Part shown: positions 1,600-64,000 of the stretch, piece by piece
How positions within the stretch are numbered: the first letter of the stretch is position 1
Layout of the letters: the number at the start of each line of letters is the position of its first letter
Source: Dastarcus helophoroides
Lineage: Eukaryota; Arthropoda; Insecta; Coleoptera; Bothrideridae
DNA length: 64,000 nucleotides
Direction of reading: 5' to 3'
NCBI GenBank assembly: GCA_028583605.1
Contig: CM053329.1
Location: 4,092,001 to 4,156,000 of the forward strand
Notes under the pieces: model-generated
Databases searched by the model: none
Told to the model about the DNA's origin: nothing
Seen by the model: the letters and a program-made list of their open reading frames with translations, nothing else
Translations under genes and position numbers: made by a program

Positions 1600-2515
1600 A
1601 ATATTTGTTACAAGCTGGAATATGTACTCAAGAAATGTCTACTGGAGTATGTCTAAAATTAAGAGAGAATAACAAAATATATAAAATAGAACAGCATATG
1701 AATGACTTGAGTGAAGAACAATCAGGATTCCGCAAAAGGAGATCATGTCTAGATAATATATTTATCATGAGACAAGTCATAGAAAATAACAAAGCCAAGA
1801 ACATTGAGATATATATGACGTTTATAGTTTTAAAAAAGGCATATGGGAAGAATGAATGTCGAAGAAAAATGGATTTACATAACACAAAAATTATACAGAC
1901 ACAAAATTGCAAATAAAAATAGGCAACAAATTAACGAAACCAATAAACATAACGAAAGGTATGAAGCAAGGATGCGGTCTATCACCCACACTCTCTCATA
2001 TATTTATAGAACAAGCTCTAGAGAGGTGGTATAAAAATGCAGAAGGATGGGAATTCCGATAAATGGAAATATATTACACTCACTACTGTTCGCGGACGAC
2101 AAAGTTATTTTTGCACAAGAAAAAGAAGACATGGAATATATGATAAGGAAACTAAAAGAAGAATACGAATTATGGGGACCTAAAATAAACATGAGCAAAA
2201 CTGAATTCTAGGCAAGAGGATGCAGATCTTAATCTAGAGAAGGAAATTTTCATCAGCTGTCGAATCTTTAGATATCTAGGATCGATAGTACACCGAGATG
2301 CTACCTGTATAAGAGACACAGAAACAAAAATAGCACGAAGAAGACATACTACAAGAGCACTTCACGGATTGACATGGAACAACACTCTTACCAAAGGGAA
2401 CCAAAAAAGGATTTTTGAAAGCATAGTACAAAATATATATGTATGGGCAGAAGTATGGCAAGCAACAGATACAACGAGGAGTAAAATAAGAATAAAGAAG
2501 ATATAACTGAGAAAT
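1600..2515 (+). pseudogene. non-LTR retrotransposon (LINE) reverse transcriptase fragment
   Basis: Several frames of one decayed reverse transcriptase are readable in order. EEQSGFRKRRSCLDNIF with a following VLKKAY (family form DxEKAYD) is the RT finger and palm region near 1700-1850. QGCGLSPTL appears near 1970-1990 after a frame change. LLFADD, the catalytic FADD box, appears near 2082-2100 after another. FRYLGSIVHRD and a W-rich thumb follow near 2265-2470. Frameshifts and stops separate these pieces, so it is inactive. The 5' endonuclease part is absent. The clade (RTE-like or CR1-like) cannot be settled by eye. It lies in the same 5'-to-3' sense as the + strand, antisense to groucho. 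Confidence 0.82.
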
Positions 2516-4892
2516 TGAACGTTATTATATAGTATTTATGTTTGTTGGTGATATATATAAGACCACAGGTTCCAGACCATTCGATTCTCAACGCAGCAAG
2601 AAGGTGCAAATTGTACACCTGCATATAAGTCATCTAGCTAGCGGCAAATCTCCATTAACAACTTCTAGTAATTCCAATGAAGCAGTTCATACACTCCACG
2701 ATTCTTAATTTATTATTTCAGTTTGTTACAGCATGTAACATGTAATTTACAAGAATTGTAATAATTATTCCTTAATTAGGTAGATTTATCTCTCGCCTTC
2801 GATTACACGATTACTGCTTTGTTTTCTCACCTGAATAAGCAAATTAAAACAAGTTCGCTAAAAACTACTTAAAGATGATACATTTTTGAGTAAAGTTTAT
2901 TCCAAAATTATTCCGAAGACTTCAACTTAAAACTGTATCAGTTCAAATTCTATTTTCACAATTAATCGCAAAAAAGTCCTGAAAACGGTAGACTATAAAT
3001 TACGATTTCGTAGCTCGTGACTGCAGTTACGGCCAATTGAGTGTCCATTGTTTAAGAAAATCAGCGGAAAGGAAATGATTAATTCCACCACATGCACGCT
3101 AGTACAAATTAATTAATACCCAAGAAGATAAACCCTTTAATCTGCGATCGTTGCTGTTATATATTCAGCGTGGCTGCGAAACAGTGATAGGCAATTTAAT
3201 ACTGAAGATTTATTAGTTGTTCAGCAAGGACTACAAGTGGTGCTTTCAATTCAGCGGAGCTTGTTAGACGACTTCCAGGTATTTTCTGCATCTTGAAAAG
3301 TAAACACAAGAATAAAACGAAACCGAGAGAATTTATAACAGTAGCGTGATATCGAGATATCAAAGAAACACCGTAACGGCCTATTATATGCTAAACAGCC
3401 AGCGGTTGTCGTAAACGTTGTCTAAAACCTGTGCGCATTAAAAAAGCTTTTCCATTTCCAGTTTAAAAAATGCAAAAGCTCCATGCAAAGCAAGTTTTAT
3501 ATTTTATTAGTTCCGTTAACGACGTTAATTTTTAAACATGCAAAGCTTTATAAAACGAAAAAACTCTCTTCAAAGTACATGATGCAAAAAAGATTGAATC
3601 GCAGTCGTTTAAAATGAGAGAATAATATAAATTGAGCTTTAATTTTTCGAATCAATCGTTTTTGTTTATCATCCGTTTACCCCGAAAATCGCTAAATTGA
3701 TCACTAAAACGTAGATTATTATTTTCTTAGTTATACTATAGAAACTTTCGACTATTTTTCCAGTAAATTTGAACTGTGTAAAACAGTACCAAACCAAGTT
3801 TATGGTAAACTTCCCAAAGTGGGAAATAATTTGAACAATTTGTCGTCTAAACTTCAAAAATTGTATCAAGTTTGGGAAAATTCAAACTAAAATATTCTGA
3901 TGACGAAACTGGAACCAGTTGGTAAACATTTGTTACCGATAGTTTTTCATAAACTACTTGGTTTCGATTTTTTCTTAAAATGATGGTGTATAGAACGCCG
4001 CGCCATCTTCAGAGTAAATAATGGCAGAAGTGACTCTTTTTCTTTTTGGCAAACAGAATGCGTTGTGTGGCAGATTGCGATTTCGATACTACTATAGGGC
4101 ATATTAAAAATGTATGTTATATTGTTACCATTAGTGATTCTCAGGCAAAATACTGAGTTTTGATTTCATACTAAATAAGTTTGGTTTTTTTAATCAAATA
4201 TTTTCTTAAATATTTGTCAAAAATTGAGAATATTACTTTAACCTAACCACCCAAGATAAATATCGGATTAGTTATAACATAACCTTTCCAGTACTAAAAA
4301 AACAACAAAAGCATACACTGTCAAATAAAGTAGCGAGGACCCGCTAGCATCTAATGTAAAGTTAAAGAGACAGAACTGCCTCTATACAAGTTAGCTTATT
4401 TTATGGATGAGAGCTAAAGAAAGTGTACCTTTTGTAATAAAAGAGTAAAAAAAATTAATAATGTCGTTAAAATATATCGGGTGTAACAGGATCATTGTAC
4501 ATCCCCTATTTTTTCCTTTATTTATAAAGATAAAATATTCAAACTTGACACACTTGATATACGATATGAAATGTCAAATATTGACATAAAAATGATATTG
4601 CTACTGCTGTCATTTTCACTAAAAGTGATACCAACTTTTGATTTTTAAATGTAACGCTCAGTATATTATTACATTTTTGGAATCTGCACAATTTTATGAA
4701 TACAATATACCTAAAATAAGTGATTTTTGAAGAATCGGAAATTTGTTTGGTCTCATTTTAATTAATTATAATGGAGCACCTTAAGGTTACAAAATGAGCA
4801 CTTCATTATTTTATCTCGTGATAAAGTTAGCAAAAATGGTATTTATTTTCTTAAATTGCATCATATTGGTACTGTGGTGCGACGAAGAAGTA
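2516..4892. other. intronic A/T-rich sequence, no feature recognised
   Basis: No reading frame with recognisable content, no terminal repeats and no tandem repeats were seen. Short open frames here look random in composition. Confidence 0.5.
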
Positions 4893-15102: not shown

Positions 15103-16385
15103 CTGTAAAAAAATTTTTACAATCAATATAAAATTCAATGAGGTTAATCAGTAAATATACTTTAATAGTTATTTAAATGAAAAAAATGTAAGTACGTTCT
15201 AGTTTGCGATATAAATAACTTTAATTTTATCTACATTAAAATCTCATTTTCATTAAATAAAAAATATTGCCTTATAGACTTTTAAGTTATTGGTTTTAAA
15301 TTGCCTCCTCCGTTTTAAATTATTGGGAATGTATTTTCCAGTTGGAGACAATTGTATACTCATTAAGCCGCCTGACATGTATTATTAATTCAACAGTAAA
15401 AGTTGTACATGGCTGACATTATAAATTTAATGGGAAGAGGATTAAAAATTTATATAAGGAGGAAAACTCTATCTCGTAACAATGAAAGTTTAATATGCTA
15501 CTTAAAACATAGCATCTTGGCAGTTGGCAGTATTATTATCATGTCATGTATTGAAGAGTAAAATGCGAATTTAAATAGGCACATATAATATTACGAAATA
15601 ATTGCTTATGAGGTGCAAATCTAATCCACCAGTTCACCAAGTCGTCAACTATTCGCCTATGCCGCAATCTCTGGAGAGGCTCAGCAAAGGTTTCATCATC
15701 AAATAGACGAATTACTCTTCTTTGAATGTAATCTACAAGAGCCTGTGTGTGTTTTAAGTTTTAAAGCTGACACGCAGACATCGGACAGAATACCCTCTTT
15801 GGTACTTTGTAGCGTGGATTGGATATGAGAAATATCTTAGCTCAAAAATGAATTGGAAGACCAAATTGAAAAATATTTAAATTTAATTAATCAAACGATC
15901 AAAAAGCAACAGATAATAACAGGTATAACCGCCCATGATGCAGTAATGTGAAACCTGGCCCGGCATTAGCAAATATTCAGCGAAACATTGTGGAATTTTT
16001 AATATCTGTTCCTTTTTGATTATTATTAAAGTTTAGTAGCTATGAATATTAAAGAATTCCACGAAGTAAGGGTTGGAAATGTCAATTTAATTAATCAAGT
16101 TGATATTAGAGTACATTTAATTCAGTACCCGAATATTACTTAACATTTATCTCATAACAAAGAAGTCACACACGATTAGTAAGAAAGAAAAAAAATCGGC
16201 TAAGAGCCACTCAGGTGCGCAAATGGGGTTCCGCACCAATTAGTGCAGTAAACAGTCAATAGCAAATTAAATCATTTTAACCAATGCATGAGTTTACCAA
16301 TATTGAAATCTTATCCCATTTTTCTTGTGCAACAATTGAAAAATAAAGAAAAAAGAAGAGGAAATTCATCGTAAACACAACGTCA

Positions 16386-16747
16386 TATGGGCATCAGCAA
16401 CAACATGCCGACAAGCTCACTCATTCATTAGAATGCCGGGCAGGGAAAGGGAAAAACTATGCCTACAACTTTCAAGAAATAACCTCAAAAAACTTGTAGG
16501 AATTTGGACAGGTCGCTGTCGATTAAACAAACACCTCCACAGAATGGAAATTATAAACGATCCGAGTTGTAGGGGGTGTTTAGAAGAAGATGAGAGTATC
16601 GAGCACGTGATGTGTCACTGCCCGGCACTAGCATCAATCAGAGGATCCACGCTGGGGGACTTCTTGCCTAGTGTGACCAGTTTGAAAGAGGCGCATCCAA
16701 GGGACGTCCTTCAGTTTCTCAACAATGCTGGGTGGCTGAATGAATGA
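16386..16747 (+). pseudogene. LINE ORF2 C-terminal fragment (R1/I/Jockey-type, with zinc-knuckle tail)
   Basis: The frame reads CRQAHSFI just before base 16433, then REREKLCLQLSRNNLKKLVG, WTGRCRLNKHLHRM, and a Cys/His cluster CRGCLEEDESIEHVMCHC, ending with a stop at 16745-16747. RNase H domain remnants followed by LVG-TGHCRLN-HL and a C-x2-C-H-C tail are typical of the 3' end of insect R1/Jockey/I-group ORF2 proteins. The upstream RT and endonuclease are missing, as expected of a 5'-truncated insertion. A 3' UTR-like stretch continues to about 16850. It lies just upstream of the groucho 15001 exon, on the opposite strand. Confidence 0.8.
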
Positions 16748-28900: not shown

Positions 28901-29855
28901 TATCTGAATTGAAATCCATATCAATTAAAACTTAATTAGAAGGTTAATAATCTCTCCGCTCTGCGACATTTTATCCAACCACATTAATAGTTAAGACAAG
29001 ATTATTGCGGTAACAATAAAAATATCATGACATATATTCTTCTAAAAACCTTTTCGCTTTACTACGGCGGTAGCCTATTAAATTTAGTTCTGGAGTTTTT
29101 TAATTAAAAAATTCTTTCGTTTGGAAGCAACAATAAATCGAATGTAGTATTAATTTGTGTAAAACATTTCCAGTCAAAAGCTTTCGGAATGTGTCTCGCT
29201 AATATCTAGCGAGCCGGAGCAGAAAATAGGATTATTTATCGTTTTGTTTGTCGCTCCGGTATTCCGTGGTGTAACGTACGGTCAATTAATTTCAATATGC
29301 ATGCAGGAAAATCAGCGTCTGAAAATATGACAATGAATTCCTAATAATGGTGCGCTAAACTACCCAAGTGCCGTCGCATGCGGGGAGCTAACTTTATTGC
29401 CACAGAGGTACAATAGAGGCCCATTCAAATGCGGGGCACATATAATAAGGTGCACTTTATTGTTTATAGCGCCATCCTCTGTTTTCTCTCTCTCATGAGA
29501 AAATAAAATAGCCACAAATCTCCAGCTTCGCTCAAGGGCCTTTTCCTCTCCCTAGCGCCCTTCGCATTACAGGCTTATATGGCAGGAGAAACAACTGCTA
29601 TTTTATTCACGAAAAAGTTTTAAGGGGGCTAGTTCCAGTCGACAGATCTTGCGTCGAATAAATAAGTTAAGGAGTCACAAAATGGAACATCCTTTCATCC
29701 AAAATATATATTTCCTTATATCGTTTCCTTCCTACCATGTATTTTATAGGCTCTGAGGTACCTTACAAATCTAAATCTACTCTTAAATTATACATAGAAA
29801 CCCTAAACGAAGAGAATCTAAAACGTATTATTAAATCTTGTTACAGTTATATATA
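28901..29855. other. non-coding stretch with a G/C-richer pocket
   Basis: No gene seen. Bases 29160-29620 have more balanced composition than their surroundings and could hold regulatory sequence. This is an inference from composition only. Confidence 0.3.
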
Positions 29856-31074
29856 CAGGGTTTTTCAACGAAAAGCAGCCACCCTTAATAACTCAAAAAC
29901 GGAGAATAGCAGAAACATTTCCAAAAACAGGTCGATTTTTATTTCAAGGGGGACAACTTTTGGCGTCAAGTTCTTGATGACATCGCTTTCGCCCTTCCCC
30001 CCACTCCAACTACTTCAAAAAATTTAAATGGCAATACGATCCAAATAATACTTCATTTGAAAGATATTTTAACTATCTATTCAGTGGTGTGCTACATTTA
30101 AAATTCGGGCCATTAGTGTTTTAGAAATAGTCGATTAACCTTTAAGAATAAACTTAGGAAATTTACCGTGGTGGAACAAACTTTATAAACATTTTCTTCC
30201 TGATCATAGGTTTTTAGCCATTTTTTATCGCAGTCATAAGTAGCGCCAGTAAAATTTGACGATAATTTGACTGGCGCTGCTTTTCTGGAACTTCTTGATA
30301 CCACCTTTAATCCACGCATAACAGAACTATTGGAAAATGATGAAAACTTGCTTGAAAATGAACTAGTTTTTCGGCAAGATGGGACACCTCCCCACTATGC
30401 GGTTCCCGTTCGAGAATTTTTGAACGATCGCTTTCCTGGACGATGGATTGGAAGACGTGGTCCAATCGAATTGCCGGCTGAATCACAAGACCTGTCTCAG
30501 TTGCATTATTTCTTATGGGGGCATTTGAAATCCAAAGTGTATGCAACACAACCAGCCGACGTTAAAGATCTTTGGCAAAGAATAATAGAAGAATGCCGAC
30601 AATTAACACCCCAAGTTCTCTCAAATGTTCGTGAACTCTTTCAAAGTCCTCTGTATTATTGTATGGAAATTAACGGAGGTCAGTTTGAACACTTACTTTA
30701 ACGGTAATTGCCATGATTGAATCTGGATGAGCCAGAAAATGTTTACGAAGTTTGTTCCACCACGGTATATTTTCTAAGTTTATTCTTAAACGTTAATCGA
30801 CTATTTCTAAAACACTAATGCCCAAATTTCAAACGTAGCACACCACTGAATAGATAGTTAAAATATCTTCCAAATGAAGTATTATATGGATCGCATTGCC
30901 ATTTAAATTTTTTGAGGTACTTGGATTGGTGGGAAGGGGGAAAGCGATGTCATCAAGAACTTGACGCCAAAAGTTGCCTACCTTGAAATAAAAATCGACC
31001 TGTTTTTGGAAATTTTTCTGCTATTCTTCGTTTTTGAGTTACTAAGGGTGGCTACTTTTCTCTGACAAACCCTG
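29856..31074 (+). mobile_element. Tc1/mariner-related element with ~340 bp terminal inverted repeats
   Basis: The left arm 29856-30197 and right arm 30734-31074 are inverted copies, starting CAGGGTTTTTCAACGAAAAG and (reverse complement) CAGGGTTTGTCAGAGAAAAG. The element is flanked by TA at 29854-29855 and 31075-31076. Between the arms is only about 0.5 kb containing the C-terminal third of a transposase. Unusually long inverted repeats with so little interior suggest internal deletion. Confidence 0.88.
30261..30704 (+). pseudogene. Tc1/mariner-like DDE transposase, C-terminal part
   Basis: A continuous open frame runs to a stop near 30701 and reads FLELLDTTFNPRITELLEND, VFRQDGTPPHYAVPVREFLN (second catalytic Asp in QDG-PPHY), GRWIGRRGPIELPAESQDLS (third catalytic region), FLWGHLKSKVY, and ends NGGQFEHLL, the usual C terminus of this insect transposase group. 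The third motif is altered: canonical SPDL is QDL here, though the Asp itself is kept. The N-terminal DNA-binding region and first catalytic Asp are missing. The conserved reading frame suggests a relatively recent deletion. Confidence 0.85.
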
Positions 31075-31220
31075 TATATACTTCGCTTTTTTAAATCCTT
31101 CGTTCTAAAATTACATTACGATGTTGGCAAAAGATAGACTTAGTTCTTCCCAGGTTGGACAGCATAAAAAAATGCTGCAGGTGTTGAAAATTACGCCCGC
31201 CATCATTGGGACCTTTTTTA

Positions 31221-31545
31221 GACTCTAATGCACAGACCAATAGGTTTGAACATTTATTAGATTCGAAGCTTGAAAACCAAAGACCGGTTTCGATCTTATT
31301 AGATCTCGTCAGTTTGGTATATCCAACTCGAATGCTAACAAACGCTCCGACAAGTAAGTAGTAAAAAATCAACGAACGTCATGCGTGTGACACTCACAGA
31401 CTACCGCCATTAGAATCCTTGTCTTCTGGGAACTTTCCTAGAGAGCAGTGCTAGGTGGCAGTGTTTCAACTGTTGGTAGTTCAGCTACCTATGATTTACT
31501 ATACACGCCTGGAGGGCTGCAGTGTAGGTTATATTCTACTTGCAT
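31221..31545. mobile_element. hammerhead-bearing retrozyme-like insertion, copy 2 (head-to-head arms)
   Basis: The left arm (31221-31411) is the antisense form of the 379 bp unit seen at 41578-42804 and includes its hammerhead; the right arm (from 31412, gaatccttgtcttctggg) is the sense form of the complementary part of the unit, ending acttgcat near 31545. The junction turns orientation around. Flanks ctttttTAGA and cttttt-GAGA are a possible imperfect target duplication. Confidence 0.78.
31248..31347 (-). ncRNA. type I hammerhead ribozyme, retrozyme copy 2
   Basis: On the minus strand: CUGACGA, stem II GAUCU-AAUA-AGAUC, GAAA, self-complementary ACCGGU, a pyrimidine at the cleavage position, then UUUGGU pairing with ACCAAA before the core, and a long outer stem I. 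The loop of stem II differs by one base from other copies (AAUA for AACA) and the cleavage base is C rather than A. The catalytic core bases are intact. Confidence 0.8.
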
Positions 31546-40454: not shown

Positions 40455-41577
40455 AATTTCTTTTACTATTAATCTGCTATCCCAGGACCATACAGCTGCC
40501 CTTCTTCCAGTTACACCAAGACTCTGAGCACTTCTCGTGCTGCGGATTTTCGTCGGTTGATAACTTATGAAATAAGGTTGTCCAGGTCCAGGTTGTCCAT
40601 ATTTTCCAAGGAATCCGGATTCCAACGTATAGCCACGCCATAATAAATTGTTAATTGATCAATTAATTTTGCAGTTAATTTACCTTTTCCTCCGAGGTCT
40701 TTAACTTTTTTCTTCAGATTTCCCAATCGAGTGCCCATTCTCTTTTGTACATGATCAATGCACTCTTTCTTTTGTACTTTAAAATTTTTGTACGGATTTT
40801 ATCCATTATTCCTTTGAAGGTTTTGGTGTCACCATCACCGATGTAATTTGCGTATTTGAGACCGTGCAAAGTTTAGGATCGTTGGAACATTTCGACGACA
40901 GAGTCTACCTCCATCTTACCAGCTGAGCCTTAATGGTTTGCTTGACATTCATCGACATGTTTTTCGTACTATTCTTCATACTCACTTATTTCCAATTTAT
41001 TCTTCCAGTGTTCGCAAGACTTACAGTGCTTTGACTTCACTTCAACATCGACGATTTTGCCTGTAAACCATCCAATCAATGAGGTGATTCCAAAAAGCGA
41101 AGAAAATTCGCGTTTCCTCCACGAGCCATCACCGGAAACAGTAATCCCTTCAAGTTGTCCATCTTCTTCACTTTTCTTTTTCTCTTCTAGCGCTGCTTTC
41201 TTCATACTAGCCTCTCGTACGGTAGCTGTTACGATCGACATCATATCCACAAATTTGTCGTAAAAAGATTGAAATATCGGTCGTGGCAATTCCATAAAAG
41301 TACAAAACTTTATTATTCCATTTAGTCCTATTCCTAATAGTCGTATTGCTAACATGATTCGACGGTTACTTTCGTATGCATTTCGTATGAATTTACTACT
41401 TGGAATAACAGCATCTGGACATTTCGGACAAACGATAACTATTTTGAAGCCTAAGCCCCGAGGATTTCTTTCATGAAACGTGATGTCTGAATCACACGTT
41501 TTACACTTCACATGTTGTGAAATGACAGAGAAAACGGCAACAAAATTTATAATTCTATAGCTTAATTCATAATTAAT
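40455..41577 (-). pseudogene. Mutator-like/Kolobok transposase, main part
   Basis: The longest intact frame (from the insertion junction down to about 40969) contains a zinc-binding CxxC pair (CKTCD, CPKCPD), an arthropod-typical block with IRLLGIGLNGI and ELPRPIFQSFYDKFV, the motif TVSGDGSWRKREFSSLFG (first acidic catalytic region), ITSLIGWFTGKIVDVEVKS and the CKSCEHW cluster. Downstream in other frames come GSAGKMEVDSVVEMFQRS, YIGDGDTKTFKGI, VQKRMGTRLGNLKKKVKDLG and GKGKLTAKLIDQLTIYYG. All blocks are in the order of the Mutator-like transposase domain proteins common in arthropod genomes. Stops after VDECQANH and frameshifts make it inactive. The N-terminal end was severed by the retrozyme insertion at 41578. 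Confidence 0.88.
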
Positions 41578-41751
41578 GCAAGAAGAATGCAACCTAGACT
41601 ACAAATTCATGCAGCCCTCCAGGCGTGTATAGTGGAATCATAGGTAGCTGAACTACCAACAGTTGAAACACTGCGCCACCTAGCGAAGCGGTTGCTCTCT
41701 AGGAGAGTTCCCAGAAGACAAGGATTCTATAATGCACAGACCAATAGGTTT

Positions 41752-41851
41752 GAACATTTATTAGATTCGAAGTTTGGAAACCAAATACCGGTTTCGATCT
41801 TGTTAGATCTCGTCAGTTTGGTATATCCAACTCGAATGCTAATAAATGTTC
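41752..41851 (-). ncRNA. type I hammerhead ribozyme, retrozyme unit 1
   Basis: Same sequence and fold as described for the sense copy at 42678-42777, read on the minus strand; the core CUGACGA lies at 41816-41810. Spacing to the next same-strand hammerhead is 379 bases, so paired cleavage would release a unit-length RNA that could circularise. Confidence 0.87.
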
Positions 41852-42130
41852 CGACAAGTAAGTACTAAAACAATCACAGGCGTCGAGCGAGTGACTCTTT
41901 AGTACTACCACCTATTGGTCCATAGAGAAACTATGGCCATCGCCAACAATGTCGTATGCAAGAAGAATGCAACCTAGACTACAAATTCATGCAGCCCTCC
42001 AGGCGTGTATAGTGAATCATAGGTAGCTGAACTGCCAACAGTTGAAACACTGCGCCACCTAGCGAAGCGGTTGCTCTCTAGGAGAGTTCCCAGAAGACAA
42101 GGATTCTATAATGCACAGACCAATAGGTTT

Positions 42131-42230
42131 GAACATTTATTAGATTCGAAGTTTGGAAACCAAATACCGGTTTCGATCTTGTTAGATCTCGTCAGTTTGG
42201 TATATCCAACTCGAATGCTAATAAATGTTC
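42131..42230 (-). ncRNA. type I hammerhead ribozyme, retrozyme unit 2
   Basis: Identical core to unit 1, 379 bases away on the same strand. Near-identity of the two units suggests the array arose from rolling or concatemeric copying in a recent insertion. Confidence 0.87.
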
Positions 42231-42677
42231 CGACAAGTAAGTACTAAAACAATCACAGGCGTCGAGCGAGTGACTCTTTAGTACTACCACCTATTGGTCC
42301 ATAGAGAAACTATGGCCATCGCCAACAATGTCGTATGCAAGAAGAATGCAACCTAGACTACAAATTCATGCAGCCCTCCAGGCGTGTATAGTGAATCATA
42401 GGTAGCTGAACTACCAACAGTTGAAACACTGCGCCACCTAGCGAAGCGGTTGCTCTCTAGGAGAGTTCCCAGAAGACAGTGTTTCAACTGTTGGTAGTTC
42501 AGCTACCTATGATTCACTATACACGCCTGGAGGGCTGCATGAATTTGTAGTCTAGGTTGCATTCTTCTTGCATACGACATTGTTGGCGATGGCCATAGTT
42601 TCTCTATGGACCAATAGGTGGTAGTACTAAAGAGTCACTCGCTCGACGCCTGTGATTGTTTTAGTACTTACTTGTCG

Positions 42678-42777
42678 GAACATTTATTAGCATTCGAGTT
42701 GGATATACCAAACTGACGAGATCTAACAAGATCGAAACCGGTATTTGGTTTCCAAACTTCGAATCTAATAAATGTTC
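42678..42777 (+). ncRNA. type I hammerhead ribozyme, inverted retrozyme arm (best reference copy)
   Basis: Order on +: outer stem I strand 42678-42702, bulge, inner stem I ACCAAA (42707-42712), CUGACGA (42713-42719), stem II GAUCU-AACA-AGAUC (42720-42733), GAAA (42734-42737), stem III as the self-complementary ACCGGU (42737-42742), cleavage base A42743, then inner stem I UUUGGU (42744-42749) and the outer strand 42752-42777. GAACATTTATTAG pairs with CTAATAAATGTTC and ATTCGA with TCGAAT. All conserved hammerhead positions are present. Stem III has no loop, so cleavage is expected in a dimeric form. Confidence 0.87.
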
Positions 42778-42815
42778 AAACCTATTGGTCTGTGCATTAT
42801 AGAATCATAATTAAT

Positions 42816-42981: not shown

Positions 42982-43262
42982 TACTCATTGTAACTTACAA
43001 GCACTCTGAGATTACAAATAAACTGTTAAAAATTAGCACTGCACACAAAAATCGTGATTTCATGCGACGAAATTATGTCCTTTTTGTACACGTGTTGACT
43101 CTACACTAACGTTCTATTGATTAGAAATGCTTCTACCTGAATATAAATGCTTTATAATGGCATCTGTTAGTGTCTCTAAAGCACTGAACTAAACACTGTG
43201 GCTTGTGATTAAGTCCAAAGAAGGTTTCACCCCTTTACCACATCGGCAATTAAATAAATAAA

Positions 43263-43889
43263 GATGTTGCGATTTTTAATGGTTTCCCCGTAGAAACAGT
43301 AAACAGCATGTTAAGAAAATGTAGATTTAAGAAAATAATTCAGGATTGCTCTAAGCTTGACCAATCTAAAGATAACACTCCTACAACCGTTGTGAAATTA
43401 CCATTTTACCCAAATATCACTAATAAAATCAATAAAGTTTTAAAAGAAAACAACGTAAAAGTAGTGTACACAGCCAACAACAGTCTCCGCAATAATTTGG
43501 GTAATGCAAAAGATAAATTGGACAAGCTTGAGAATTCCGGAATTTACGAAATAAGCTGTAACAATTGTAATTTATCATATGTTGGACAGACCAAGAGATC
43601 CATTAAAACCAGATTTAAAGAACATATCGCTCATTTTAGATACAATAGAGAAGAAAAATCAAGTGTCGCCCTACATATGATAAATACAGGACACAAAATT
43701 AACATTGAAAATTTAAAATTGTTAAGATCGGTCACAAATAGCAGAGAACTTGATGCATACGAAACAATTTATATCAATCAGAGGCCAGTTACCCTTAACG
43801 GAGATAAAGGACCATTGGCGGCCTCCAGTTTATTGAAGGCTATTTGTGGCAGGTCAAAATTGCATGCACCAGATGTGTTAAACAATTAG
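43263..43889 (+). CDS. Penelope-like element GIY-YIG endonuclease domain (5'-truncated ORF)
   Basis: In Penelope-like retroelements a reverse transcriptase is fused to a C-terminal GIY-YIG endonuclease that nicks target DNA for primed reverse transcription. The frame is open from 43263 to TAG at 43887-43889. Counting from the internal ATG at 43308, GIYEISCNNC lies at residues 78-87 and LSYVGQTKRS at 89-98 (the two halves of the GIY-YIG motif), followed by RFKEHIAHF and a conserved RELDAYE acidic region. The CNNC pair between the motif halves is usual for this group. The RT domain is missing, so this copy is not autonomous. The frame has no stops, which implies a fairly young insertion. Confidence 0.9.
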   Translation, partial: DVAIFNGFPVETVNSMLRKCRFKKIIQDCSKLDQSKDNTPTTVVKLPFYPNITNKINKVLKENNVKVVYTANNSLRNNLGNAKDKLDKLENSGIYEISCNNCNLSYVGQTKRSIKTRFKEHIAHFRYNREEKSSVALHMINTGHKINIENLKLLRSVTNSRELDAYETIYINQRPVTLNGDKGPLAASSLLKAICGRSKLHAPDVLNN

Positions 43890-43975
43890 AAATAGGAAAG
43901 AACGCAAAAGATCGCCAGTATCGATTTGAATCTCAATGCAGATGACGTCGATGCATTTTTTGCTAATCTTTTTAG

Positions 43976-44029
43976 ATTAGTATGCTTGAAAATGCCAGTT
44001 CTGCTGGCGAAATACGTATCGCGTAATTA
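43976..44029 (+). ncRNA. decayed hammerhead ribozyme motif in the Penelope-like 3' repeat (family B)
   Basis: Order on +: stem I strand GUAUGC (43980-43985), core UUGAAAA (43986-43992; consensus CUGANGA with two transitions), one extra U, stem II GCCAG-UUCUG-CUGGC (43994-44008), GAAA (44009-44012), self-complementary AUACGUAU (44012-44019), cleavage base C44020, then GCGUAA pairing with the stem I strand. The two core changes should abolish cleavage. Confidence 0.6.
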
Positions 44030-44321
44030 TTTATTTAATTGCCGATGTGGTAAAGGGGTGAAACCTTCTTTGGATCTGTTAGTGTATTTGAGAAGATAGA
44101 AATCAAAACGTAGGACATTAGGCTGTACCTTCCCAGCAGGTATTCATCTGACGCAGGTGTCGTTTCGGAGCAGTCCGACGCGCTTGGGGAAGAGCTCGAA
44201 ATTTCAAGAAAAAAAATACTTTGAGGTATGAAATATTTTTCCCCATATTCTAAAAGGTTCAAAGTATTTTATAAGCCTAAAAAAAATCGATTTTTTTAAA
44301 AACTTACAGTGGTGTTATCCC

Positions 44322-53200: not shown

Positions 53201-54401
53201 CACTGAGCTGTAATCTAAATAATCCCAAAGTACAATAGTACTCATGACTAGTTTTATATTGTTGGGAAGTTTTGTTCGGACGTAGCTATTTTATATTTCA
53301 CTCTCTTTTTTTCAGCAAACGAATCCTGTCAAATGAATCACACCTAGTCACAGTTGTAAATATATTTCTAAATTCATATCAGCCAGTTTCTTGGATAACC
53401 AATAAAAAAGTGAAGTAAGTCGAGCGAAACGTATAAATAATGAATGAAGAAACAAAGTAATAAAATGTAGCTTGCGTTTTCCCACATGAGCATAATAAAC
53501 TATCAAACAGTGCTACGTCAGGAATCGACTAAAATATAAAAACGTCAATATGTTCCCAACCCTTATGTGCCATCCAAGTCGTCGTAAAACTCCCGCGGTC
53601 TTATTCAGTTTAATAATAATATAGTAGGGGACACTTGTGATGCTAGAACAGACCCGGACTTCATTTAGACCAACAAAAATAAAGCTATTTTATTACCATA
53701 CCATATGTACTTGGAAGAATGATTTGATTGTATGAAATTAACATTTTTTTTGGCAGTTATTAAAATAATAGATATAATTAACACAAAAGATGAAATTTTG
53801 GACCATCAACAGAACTCGTCACTCACGAAGTTTGTTCTGCAGATCGCTAACATCGTCTTTAGTCAAAATCCATTTGCCTTTTGGTTACAAATACTAAGGA
53901 AAGCGAAGACACGATTATGAATGTTAGGTGGTGATGCTGGATTGAGTTGTTGCCAGATGCTCTGAGAGTTTTTCTGCTAAATGATACTCCAAGTTTTACT
54001 CACTCAAAAGATATAAATTTCAGTAAACTCTAAATTTCATGCTGTCGTCAAGACAATTTTTGACGATAACAAAAAAGGTCGTCAACTTTCCATTTATCTT
54101 TACATCGCATAGTTTGACGACTAAAAAAATATATCGTACATATGTATAATACAAGTAAGAAAAATTTTACTAAACGGTAAAAATTCTACTGAATGAAATA
54201 AAAATTCTAAACAAATTATTCTAATAAATCTTTTACTAAATGATAAAAATTCTTATGCAAGTAAAATGCAATCTAGACTGCAAATTCATGGAGTCCTCTA
54301 GGCCTGTATAGTGAATCCTAGGGAGTTAAACTACCAAGAGTTGAAACACTCTAGAAAAGTCCCTAGAAGACAAGGATTCTAATGCACAGACTAATAGGTT
54401 T

Positions 54402-54492
54402 GAACATTTATTAGATTCGAAGTTTGGTTCTGGTTTCGATCTTGTTACGTCTCGTCAGTTTGAAATATCCAACTCGAATGCTAAAAAATGTT
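54402..54492 (-). ncRNA. degenerate hammerhead, retrozyme copy 3 left arm
   Basis: The core CUGACGA and GAAA remain, but stem II is mismatched (GACGU against AGAUC) and about 9 bases around stem III are deleted. Probably inactive. Confidence 0.7.
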
Positions 54493-54544
54493 CCGAAAAG
54501 TAAGTACTAAAGACCTCCGTTAATTCTTTAGTACTTACTTGTCG

Positions 54545-54642
54545 GAACGTTTGTTAGTATTGGAGTTGGATATACCACTGACGAGATCTAACAAAATCGA
54601 AACACGCCTTTGGTTTCCAAATTTCGAAACTAATAAATATTC
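54545..54642 (+). ncRNA. degenerate hammerhead, retrozyme copy 3 right arm
   Basis: CUGACGA at 54578-54584, stem II GAUCU-AACA-AAAUC with one mismatch, GAAA retained, but the palindromic stem III is changed to ACACGC. Probably inactive. Confidence 0.7.
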
Positions 54643-54729
54643 AAACCTATTGGTCTTTGCATTAGATAAAAATTCTACTAAATCTAGTACCAGTTCTACA
54701 AATTTGGCAAACCTGTCGAAATGAGGTGA

Positions 54730-63049: not shown

Positions 63050-64000
63050 ACTCTAACATACGCTAACATATTACCAATAGCTGATAGGAGGCGCTACCTG
63101 CGCTATCCTACATAATTCTAAATCATCATTACTTTTTTGTGCACCCACGTATATCGATTTTAAATAGATTATTTTATTTCCTCATATTTTTTACGTAAAA
63201 AAGGTGTACTTTCTGAAAGTTGATACGAGCAACCGTTTTCAAGATATTTGCCTTTAAAACTTGACCTGCCTTGGTTTTAAATTACTAAGAGATTAAATTT
63301 TTGAAGTAGGCCTAAAAAAAGTAATCATAAGACAGCTTAGAAACTAATTTATGTCAAATATTACTTTGCTGATAATATTATCACCTAAATTTTGAAAATC
63401 TCAATAAAGAAAATCCAAAAAATTAAGACATAATTTATTTTCTAACATAGAGATTTGAGATATGATCTCTAAGTCTGCGCAAGAAAATTTTAATAGTCTG
63501 AGTGGTCAAAGCAGATATTTGGAGATAAATTTCAATAAAAGACAGCCAGATTTTTAATTGTTTACAATCCCTTTACATAAAAAAGATTATTTCCCACATA
63601 CTTATTTTTGAAAATAAATTTTGTTTTGGTATTTTATTTAAATTCGCTTTAGAAATTTAAAAAACATGTGTAATAATAATGTCAGTAGAGTAATATTTGA
63701 TATAAACTATTTTAAAGTCAGTTTTATTACTTTTATTTTGAAACCTACTGCGAAAAATTCACATTTACATAACTTATAATAAACGTACGGCAAACTTTGA
63801 AGGCAAATATCTTGAAAACGGTTGATTGTATCAACATTTAGAAAGTATACCTTTTTAACGTAAAAAATGTAGGTAAATAAAAATATCTATTTAAAATAAG
63901 TGTACATGAAGGCACAAAAAAGTTATGATGCTTTAGAATAATACAAGGTAGTGCAGGTGGCGCCCCCTATGAGTTACTGACAATCGGTTAGTAAATTAGG
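63050..64000. mobile_element. fold-back element with ~210 bp inverted arms, reaching the window edge
   Basis: The left arm (about 63065-63280) and the right arm (about 63790-64000) are inverted copies sharing GGAGGCGCTACCTG/GGGGGCGCCACCTG, TTTTAAATAGAT, CAACCGTTTTCAAGATATTT and GCCTT-AAA. The interior is A/T-rich without coding content. The right terminus may lie beyond base 64000, so the boundaries and target duplication are unresolved. Confidence 0.72.

Follow-up and report, generated by a model that had tools for sequence, protein, structure and literature searches.

A small element that interrupts a transposase gene of the beetle Dastarcus helophoroides appears to be a metazoan non-LTR retrozyme, copies of which probably arise by twin (double) priming, with two primers extended on the same circular RNA. 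A probability of about 0.7 is given to this reading. The element, called copy A here, lies in a stretch of 64,000 nucleotides (GC 33%), which is referred to as the window and to which positions refer unless a locus is named. An earlier note, made from the sequence alone, had taken the element for a retrozyme, and this is supported by the 379-bp unit, the low GC content, the lack of an open reading frame beyond 25 aa, the type I hammerhead in each unit, the tandem copies and a target duplication longer than 4 bp. The mode of copying is read from 42 copies mapped on the circular unit, namely the best 40 loci of 1262 first-look candidates in the genome together with two older copies, B and C, from the window.

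Copy A consists of about 2.4 tandem repeats of a 379-bp unit, beginning at 41576, and a 330-bp arm in inverted orientation that ends at 42806. The direct repeats begin at 41576, 41956 and 42335, at a spacing of 379-380 bp, and are 97-100% identical; the inverted arm (42477-42806, minus strand, 330 nt) shows 100% complementarity. Units are numbered such that unit 1 is window position 41956, and the plus direction of the unit is antisense to the ribozyme. The direct arm (41576-42478, plus strand) is 903 nt long, or 2.38 laps of the 379-nt unit, starts at unit 1 (site alpha) and is antisense to the ribozyme, and the inverted arm has its outer end at unit 147 (site beta). Because an 11-bp direct repeat, TCATAATTAAT, stands at 41567-41577 on the left and at 42805-42815 on the right, the element proper is 41578-42804. 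The array interrupts an open reading frame for a Mutator-like transposase (40969-41598, minus strand; PF20700, E 9.1e-29), and joining the flanks gives one open frame through the insertion site. The repeat and inverted-repeat comparison bears out the unit and the array that the earlier note had described, and the bounding 11-bp repeat and the insertion within a transposase gene were also found as claimed. An Rfam match to mir-3140 is the inverted junction of copy A and no microRNA.

Three matches to the Rfam family HH9 (RF02275) are found in copy A, each at 34.4 bits with E 2.7e-6 in a local scan and 6.9e-5 when the whole window is scanned (5e-5 to 7e-5 for copies A and C together); these scores are below the family gathering score of 52, and a scan at the gathering threshold lists no match. 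Two of the HH9-like type I hammerheads are on the minus strand, at 41763-41834 and, 379 nt away, at 42142-42213, and the third is on the plus strand in the inverted arm, at 42695-42766, with a predicted cut between 42743 and 42744. All have the complete core CUGACGA-GAUCU-AACA-AGAUC-GAAA-CCGG-U-A. The claim of a complete type I core in every full unit therefore holds, on the sequence and on the sub-threshold HH9 matches, and a reading of the core places the cut at the position that had been predicted. Two same-strand ribozymes 379 bases apart had also been claimed; the pair exists on the minus strand, in the direct arm, whereas the plus strand of copy A has only the one at 42695-42766. Helix III is ACCGGU, a single A-U pair that closes a palindromic CCGG loop, and cleavage therefore probably needs a dimeric ribozyme. 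Any self-cleavage would then take the dimeric form reported for the axolotl and newt hammerheads, which with such a helix III cut well only as dimers according to the account in PMC7229834.

The conserved core positions, which the note had proposed to look for in genomic copies, are well kept: the 31-nt ribozyme core is exact in 119 of 121 laps at the 40 loci. At least two ribozyme laps are held by 38 of 72 arms, and 35 of those 38 have two exact cores one unit apart. The core region (units 210-240) has 4 variants where 19.1 would be expected at the rate of the remaining unit (Poisson P 4e-5); the true significance is lower, because a variant that several laps share is counted once for each of them and the expectation is raised by a hot stretch at units 373-379. 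Position 376, just before site alpha, is a hot polymorphic site (T/A), with A in at least one lap at 11 of the 40 loci. The unit has a GC content of 0.43 and no open reading frame beyond 25 aa (longest ATG frame on either strand of the circle), and is without the combined reverse transcriptase and GIY-YIG frame required of a Penelope-like element. A scan of the unit for Pol III boxes gave six A boxes with one mismatch on the sense strand and, on the antisense strand, one with one mismatch and one exact. B boxes were absent even with 2 mismatches allowed, and no claim of a Pol III promoter is made. A 27-nt ribozyme core had no exact match in the viral or prokaryote contigs scanned.

Copies B and C were found by BLAST of the window against itself. 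In copy C (31223-31545) the head-to-head arms match the unit at 82-90% identity and have their outer ends at units 151 and 1; there is one hammerhead (HH9 match 31259-31330, minus strand) and, by eye, only an imperfect flanking repeat. Copy B (54254-54664) is likewise head-to-head; it has arms at 78-89% identity to the unit, with outer ends at units 376 and 154, and is flanked by a perfect 12-bp duplication, GATAAAAATTCT, at 54242-54253 and 54665-54676. Its ribozyme cores are recognisable with a changed helix III, and the window scan gave no HH9 match there at E up to 1. In the genome (539 Mb, 50 contigs), 161 matches among those listed group into 40 loci, one of which is copy A; since these are the best of the 1262 first-look candidates, old copies are under-sampled. 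An older, separate fragment at locus L042 (1598-1818 of that locus) was excluded from all counts.

Other features of the window include inverted repeats of about 356 bp, 92% identical, at 29850-31080, which flank a frame at 30240-30701 that has no Pfam match and that we take to be a mariner-like transposase; copy C starts about 140 bp beyond this element. The end of the window has a near-palindromic segment of about 930 bp (63063-63991; 70% self-complementary by BLAST), and a minus-strand frame at 226-717, also without a Pfam match, is presumably a groucho-like exon, in keeping with an insect host.

The arms of the family follow a strict rule at their outer ends. The form described as 2.4 units plus an inverted arm is present in copy A, but it is not peculiar to it and is rather the common form of the family: 34 of the 42 mapped copies are two-armed, and all 34 converge head-to-head. 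In 29 of these 34 the outer ends fall at two different sites, one close to unit 1 (alpha) and one close to unit 148 (beta), split 14 and 15 by orientation, and no two-armed copy has two alpha or two beta outer ends. If each end chose its site independently and with equal chance, 29 mixed pairs of 29 would have a probability of about 2e-9. The remaining five two-armed copies (L033, L037, L064, L065 and L068) combine an alpha end with a non-standard other end, which in L037 is cut off by incomplete sequence. Eight copies are one-armed, with an outer end at alpha in seven and at beta in one. Among the 27 standard copies with a duplication, the median arm length is 556 nt for alpha and 528 nt for beta, and the lengths of the two arms are uncorrelated (r 0.02).

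The flanks suggest how the target is cut. Direct repeats of at least 8 bp enclose 27 of the 29 standard copies, with lengths of 12 bp (17 copies), 13 bp (4), 11 bp (3), 14 bp (2) and 9 bp (1); the exceptions are L060, where the right flank lies outside the sequence covered, and copy C, with its imperfect repeat. Such a repeat also flanks four of the eight one-armed copies. As a control, the left flank of one locus was paired with the right flank of another, which gave 8 bp in 1 of 210 pairings and never more. The deduced cut sites show a similar weak motif, W|RTYAA, on both strands (27 sites; column P values uncorrected), which would fit a symmetrical pair of endonuclease subunits that leave 3' overhangs. 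A target motif that separates alpha from beta was rejected, given that both cuts show the similar weak motif.

Sites alpha and beta may be brought together by the fold of the RNA. The circular fold of the family consensus has a minimum free energy of -135.1 kcal/mol, compared with -91.6 +/- 5.1 for 100 shuffles (z = -8.5). In this fold of one consensus, units 1-5 are predicted to pair with 157-161 and units 9-13 with 148-152, at mean probabilities of 0.76 and 0.73. On copy A the alpha strand of the predicted initiation stem (units 1-13) is at 41956-41968 and the beta strand (units 148-161) at 42103-42116, both on the minus strand, with the predicted pairings GUGCA/UGCAU and AGAAU/AUUCU. Because units 1-13 pair with 148-161, alpha and beta face each other on one predicted stem. 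By eye, UGCA is present at both start sites in copies A, B and C. The rule of one site each could reflect two protein subunits seated on this predicted stem.

Variants shared among laps bear on the nature of the template. In pairwise comparison, laps differ by 2.53 substitutions per kb within an arm, by 2.55 from one arm to the other of the same locus and by 6.20 from locus to locus. Where at least three laps cover a position, there are 56 substitution variants, of which 12 are fixed in all laps, 37 are confined to a single lap and 7 are intermediate; with variants placed at random, 1000 trials produced a mean of 0.16 and a maximum of 3 fully fixed variants. Of the 12 that are fully fixed, ten span both arms, and four are seen in one locus only, the other eight also occurring in other loci; in L059, for example, 341C is in 6/6 laps and 73C in 7/7. 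With a circular template a variant would be expected in every lap, although a uniform linear multimer could give the same result. Some copies had either more than one template or a later change, given that 7 of the 56 variants are partial and that L042 and L054 each have a variant which is fixed in one arm and which the other arm lacks. Variants are lost within a copy in L036, L057 and L067, and changes of template probably occur during copying. The arms of copy B differ at 19 of 130 aligned bases beside a perfect 12-bp duplication, and this copy may derive from two templates. A cut linear monomer was rejected as template: the 121 laps that cover the ribozyme region run across the cut site, and no clear pile-up of ends is seen there. 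Inner ends at units 207-212 number 3 of 64, compared with 1 expected, and two of the three (L034 and L041) lie in self-complementary sequence, in which their exact place is uncertain.

The alternative to be taken most seriously, though it is an unlikely one, is twin priming on a linear multimeric transcript of an array that was already homogeneous. Laps beyond one unit and the homogeneity of the arms would follow from a uniform source array, and unprocessed RNA is the main substrate in the Penelope assay as presented in PMC11167929. Nine of the 37 one-lap variants also recur in another locus, as inherited one-unit variants would; however, six of these nine are three positions at the overlapping junctions of L034 and L041 and look like alignment artefacts, which leaves only three that recur outside the two junctions. 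The frequency of one-lap variants (37 of 56) shows that a typical array is heterogeneous, and a multimeric transcript of it should often hand such variants on. Moreover, multimers should tend to cut themselves, because the ribozyme core is exact in 119 of the 121 laps. The variant 347C is in one of four laps of L032 and in 6/6 laps of L060, as if one unit had become a circle, with L032 holding a possible parent unit and L060 the daughter array; repeated mutation could also account for it. On the 40 loci examined, the linear multimer is tentatively disfavoured relative to the circle.

The form of the insertions, compared with that of one local copy with which the retrozyme shares no sequence beyond words of 8-9 nt, points to Penelope-type enzymes as the probable carrier of the retrozyme. 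About 360 bp from copy A is a Penelope-type insertion of 900 bp (43174-44073, plus strand) with a GIY-YIG domain (PF01541) in the open reading frame 43254-43889, which makes it a candidate for the type of helper. GIY-YIG is the endonuclease type of Penelope-like elements. The insertion has 48-bp inverted ends, of which only the left one carries a tail (about 40 nt), and a perfect 12-bp target duplication, ATCTGTTAGTGT, at 43162-43173 and 44074-44085. The retrozyme has the same insertion signature. Inverted ends with a one-sided tail are the signature described for Penelope elements in PMC3846280. The GIY-YIG frame has 13 protein relatives, unnamed or labelled 'hypothetical', and two weak matches to solved structures. 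At locus L035, a retrozyme array (1954-3926) abuts a diverged Penelope-type GIY-YIG fragment (3927-4364) exactly, and a second Penelope-type piece (1013-1345) is located about 600 bp beyond the other side of the array.

The common architecture and the neighbouring Penelope-type copy could also mean that the unit is the leftover pseudo-LTR of a full-length Penelope element of the same genome rather than a free-living retrozyme. This is improbable, given a unit without a reading frame beyond 25 aa and arms that, as mapped at the 40 loci, repeat every 379 nt without any insert from lap to lap. In addition, the one local Penelope-type copy that was compared has no sequence in common with the retrozyme beyond words of 8-9 nt. 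Equally doubtful is twin priming on the circle by a LINE-type enzyme. Fragments of reverse transcriptases do occur in the window (RVT_1 at 1500-1916, below the cut-off, and zf-RVT at 16340-16747, above it), but no A-tract is seen at the copy ends that were inspected, the start sites are internal and fixed, and the duplications are mostly of 12 bp, a signature that the GIY-YIG element of the window also has.

The inner ends behave quite differently from the outer ends. In the 32 two-armed copies of the 40 loci, the distribution of the 64 inner ends over the unit does not differ significantly from a uniform one (KS p 0.64). More than one unit is covered by 47 of the 64 arms, the longest at 1865 nt. 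Microhomology of at least 3 nt, an overlap that is perhaps slightly inflated by the extension of BLAST ends, is present at 16 of the 32 junctions, compared with 5.4% expected, and 5 of the 32 have 1-8 unassigned bases in its place. An inverted arm might instead arise by snap-back or self-priming of a single cDNA, with no second primer, along the lines of the antisense-template model of 2013 by which inverted junctions with palindromes in rotifer Penelope elements are explained in PMC3846280. That the arms have variants in common would agree with such an origin. It was nevertheless dropped as very improbable, given that the outer ends are fixed in 29 of 34 copies while the inner ends are scattered, that either arm may be the longer one and that a defined alpha end after several laps requires a second start site. 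The junction is also not a hairpin turn, because unit positions jump there, for instance from 96 to 60 in L038 and from 153 to 332 in L050. A tandem satellite, a foldback DNA transposon or an integrated extrachromosomal DNA circle with an incidental ribozyme is hardly credible: tandem and inverted repeats are indeed present, but the copies are single insertions dispersed in the genome and flanked by 12-bp duplications, their outer ends are fixed while the inner ones vary, and the ribozyme core has fewer variants than expected.

Taken as twin priming on a circle, the copying cycle can be set out as follows. Read-through transcripts of arms with at least two units would be cut by their own hammerheads, probably as dimers, and the 379-nt monomer would be circularised. 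A Penelope-type protein, the presumed helper and probably itself a dimer, would bind the circle at the predicted stem where alpha (unit ~1) and beta (unit ~148) oppose each other. To judge from the duplications and flanks, its endonuclease would make staggered cuts in an AT-rich target, one on each strand at W|RTYAA-like sites some 12 bp from each other, with 3' overhangs as the result. One 3' end would prime at alpha and the other at beta, and both cDNAs would be extended the same way round what is probably a single circle. The cDNAs often pass one lap and then appear to stop anywhere, as the pattern of arm lengths and inner ends suggests. Joining of the cDNA ends, often by short microhomology, would yield the head-to-head array within its 12-bp duplication.

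In short, the staggered 3' ends of the target may each take one of two obligatory, paired start sites on a single ribozyme-made circle, two reverse transcriptases may lap that circle, and the cDNAs may then join. Whether this is a distinct mechanism, the same rule of which explains the inverted pseudo-LTRs and one-sided tails of Penelope elements generally, is in our judgement an evenly balanced proposition. Two questions are left open in the available parts of the papers cited here, namely how metazoan retrozymes re-enter genomes and how Penelope elements acquire inverted ends with a one-sided tail. The retrozyme family is a natural data set for both, and a sharp candidate answer is that each target strand has its own fixed start site on a shared template molecule. 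A Penelope helper and a circular template become testable by a single reconstitution. The family also raises the possibility that insertion of small circles as head-to-head arrays is within the scope of Penelope-type enzymes.

Double priming is also known from LINE-1, in which the second 3' end of the target primes internally on the same RNA, which results in an inverted 5' part and a join at microhomology. In LINE-1, twin priming is occasional and the internal start is not known to be fixed, whereas double priming is the usual outcome in the retrozyme and the second site is fixed. The retrozyme also differs from Penelope-like elements in that it has no reverse transcriptase or endonuclease frame and in that its unit is small and iterated.

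Metazoan non-LTR retrozymes are described as parasites with a circular RNA, and a circular template with Penelope as the likely helper was proposed for them in 2020 (Cervera and de la Pena, PMC7229834). As in the retrozymes characterised in the available text of that paper, the unit falls within 170-400 bp, each unit has a type I hammerhead, the units are in tandem, GC content is low, there is apparently no LTR, the target duplication is longer than 4 bp and a Penelope-type element is present in the same genome. The single-pair helix III with a palindromic tetraloop that favours dimeric cleavage resembles the newt and axolotl hammerheads of the satellite-2 type, in contrast to the more efficient single hammerheads that the same text ascribes to most invertebrate retrozymes (PMC7229834). 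Unlike the published description, the head-to-head, two-site form is common here and the duplications are mostly of 12 bp; a word search of the main text of PMC7229834, as distinct from its supplement, gave none of 'inverted', 'opposite orientation' or 'head-to-head'. A literature search by title and the start of abstracts, which took in few subscription papers, found neither head-to-head copies of retrozymes nor a pair of fixed start sites described, and no priority is claimed.

The closest likeness is to endonuclease-bearing Penelope-like elements, which according to the portions available of PMC3846280 and PMC11167929 share head-to-head inverted ends, short target duplications (8-10 bp in their case), a tail at one end, two internal starts of reverse transcription and a type I hammerhead. 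Purified Penelope protein cuts and extends both strands of the target and starts at two internal sites on the RNA, and the tail of the element corresponds to the interval between these sites (PMC11167929). The retrozyme counterpart of that tail is about 147 nt, whereas the start sites of Penelope-like elements are spaced by 30-40 (PMC3846280, PMC11167929). In vitro, the start site of the purified Penelope enzyme did not differ between top and bottom strand (PMC11167929, as far as the available text goes), whereas the 29 standard retrozyme copies use alpha and beta one each.
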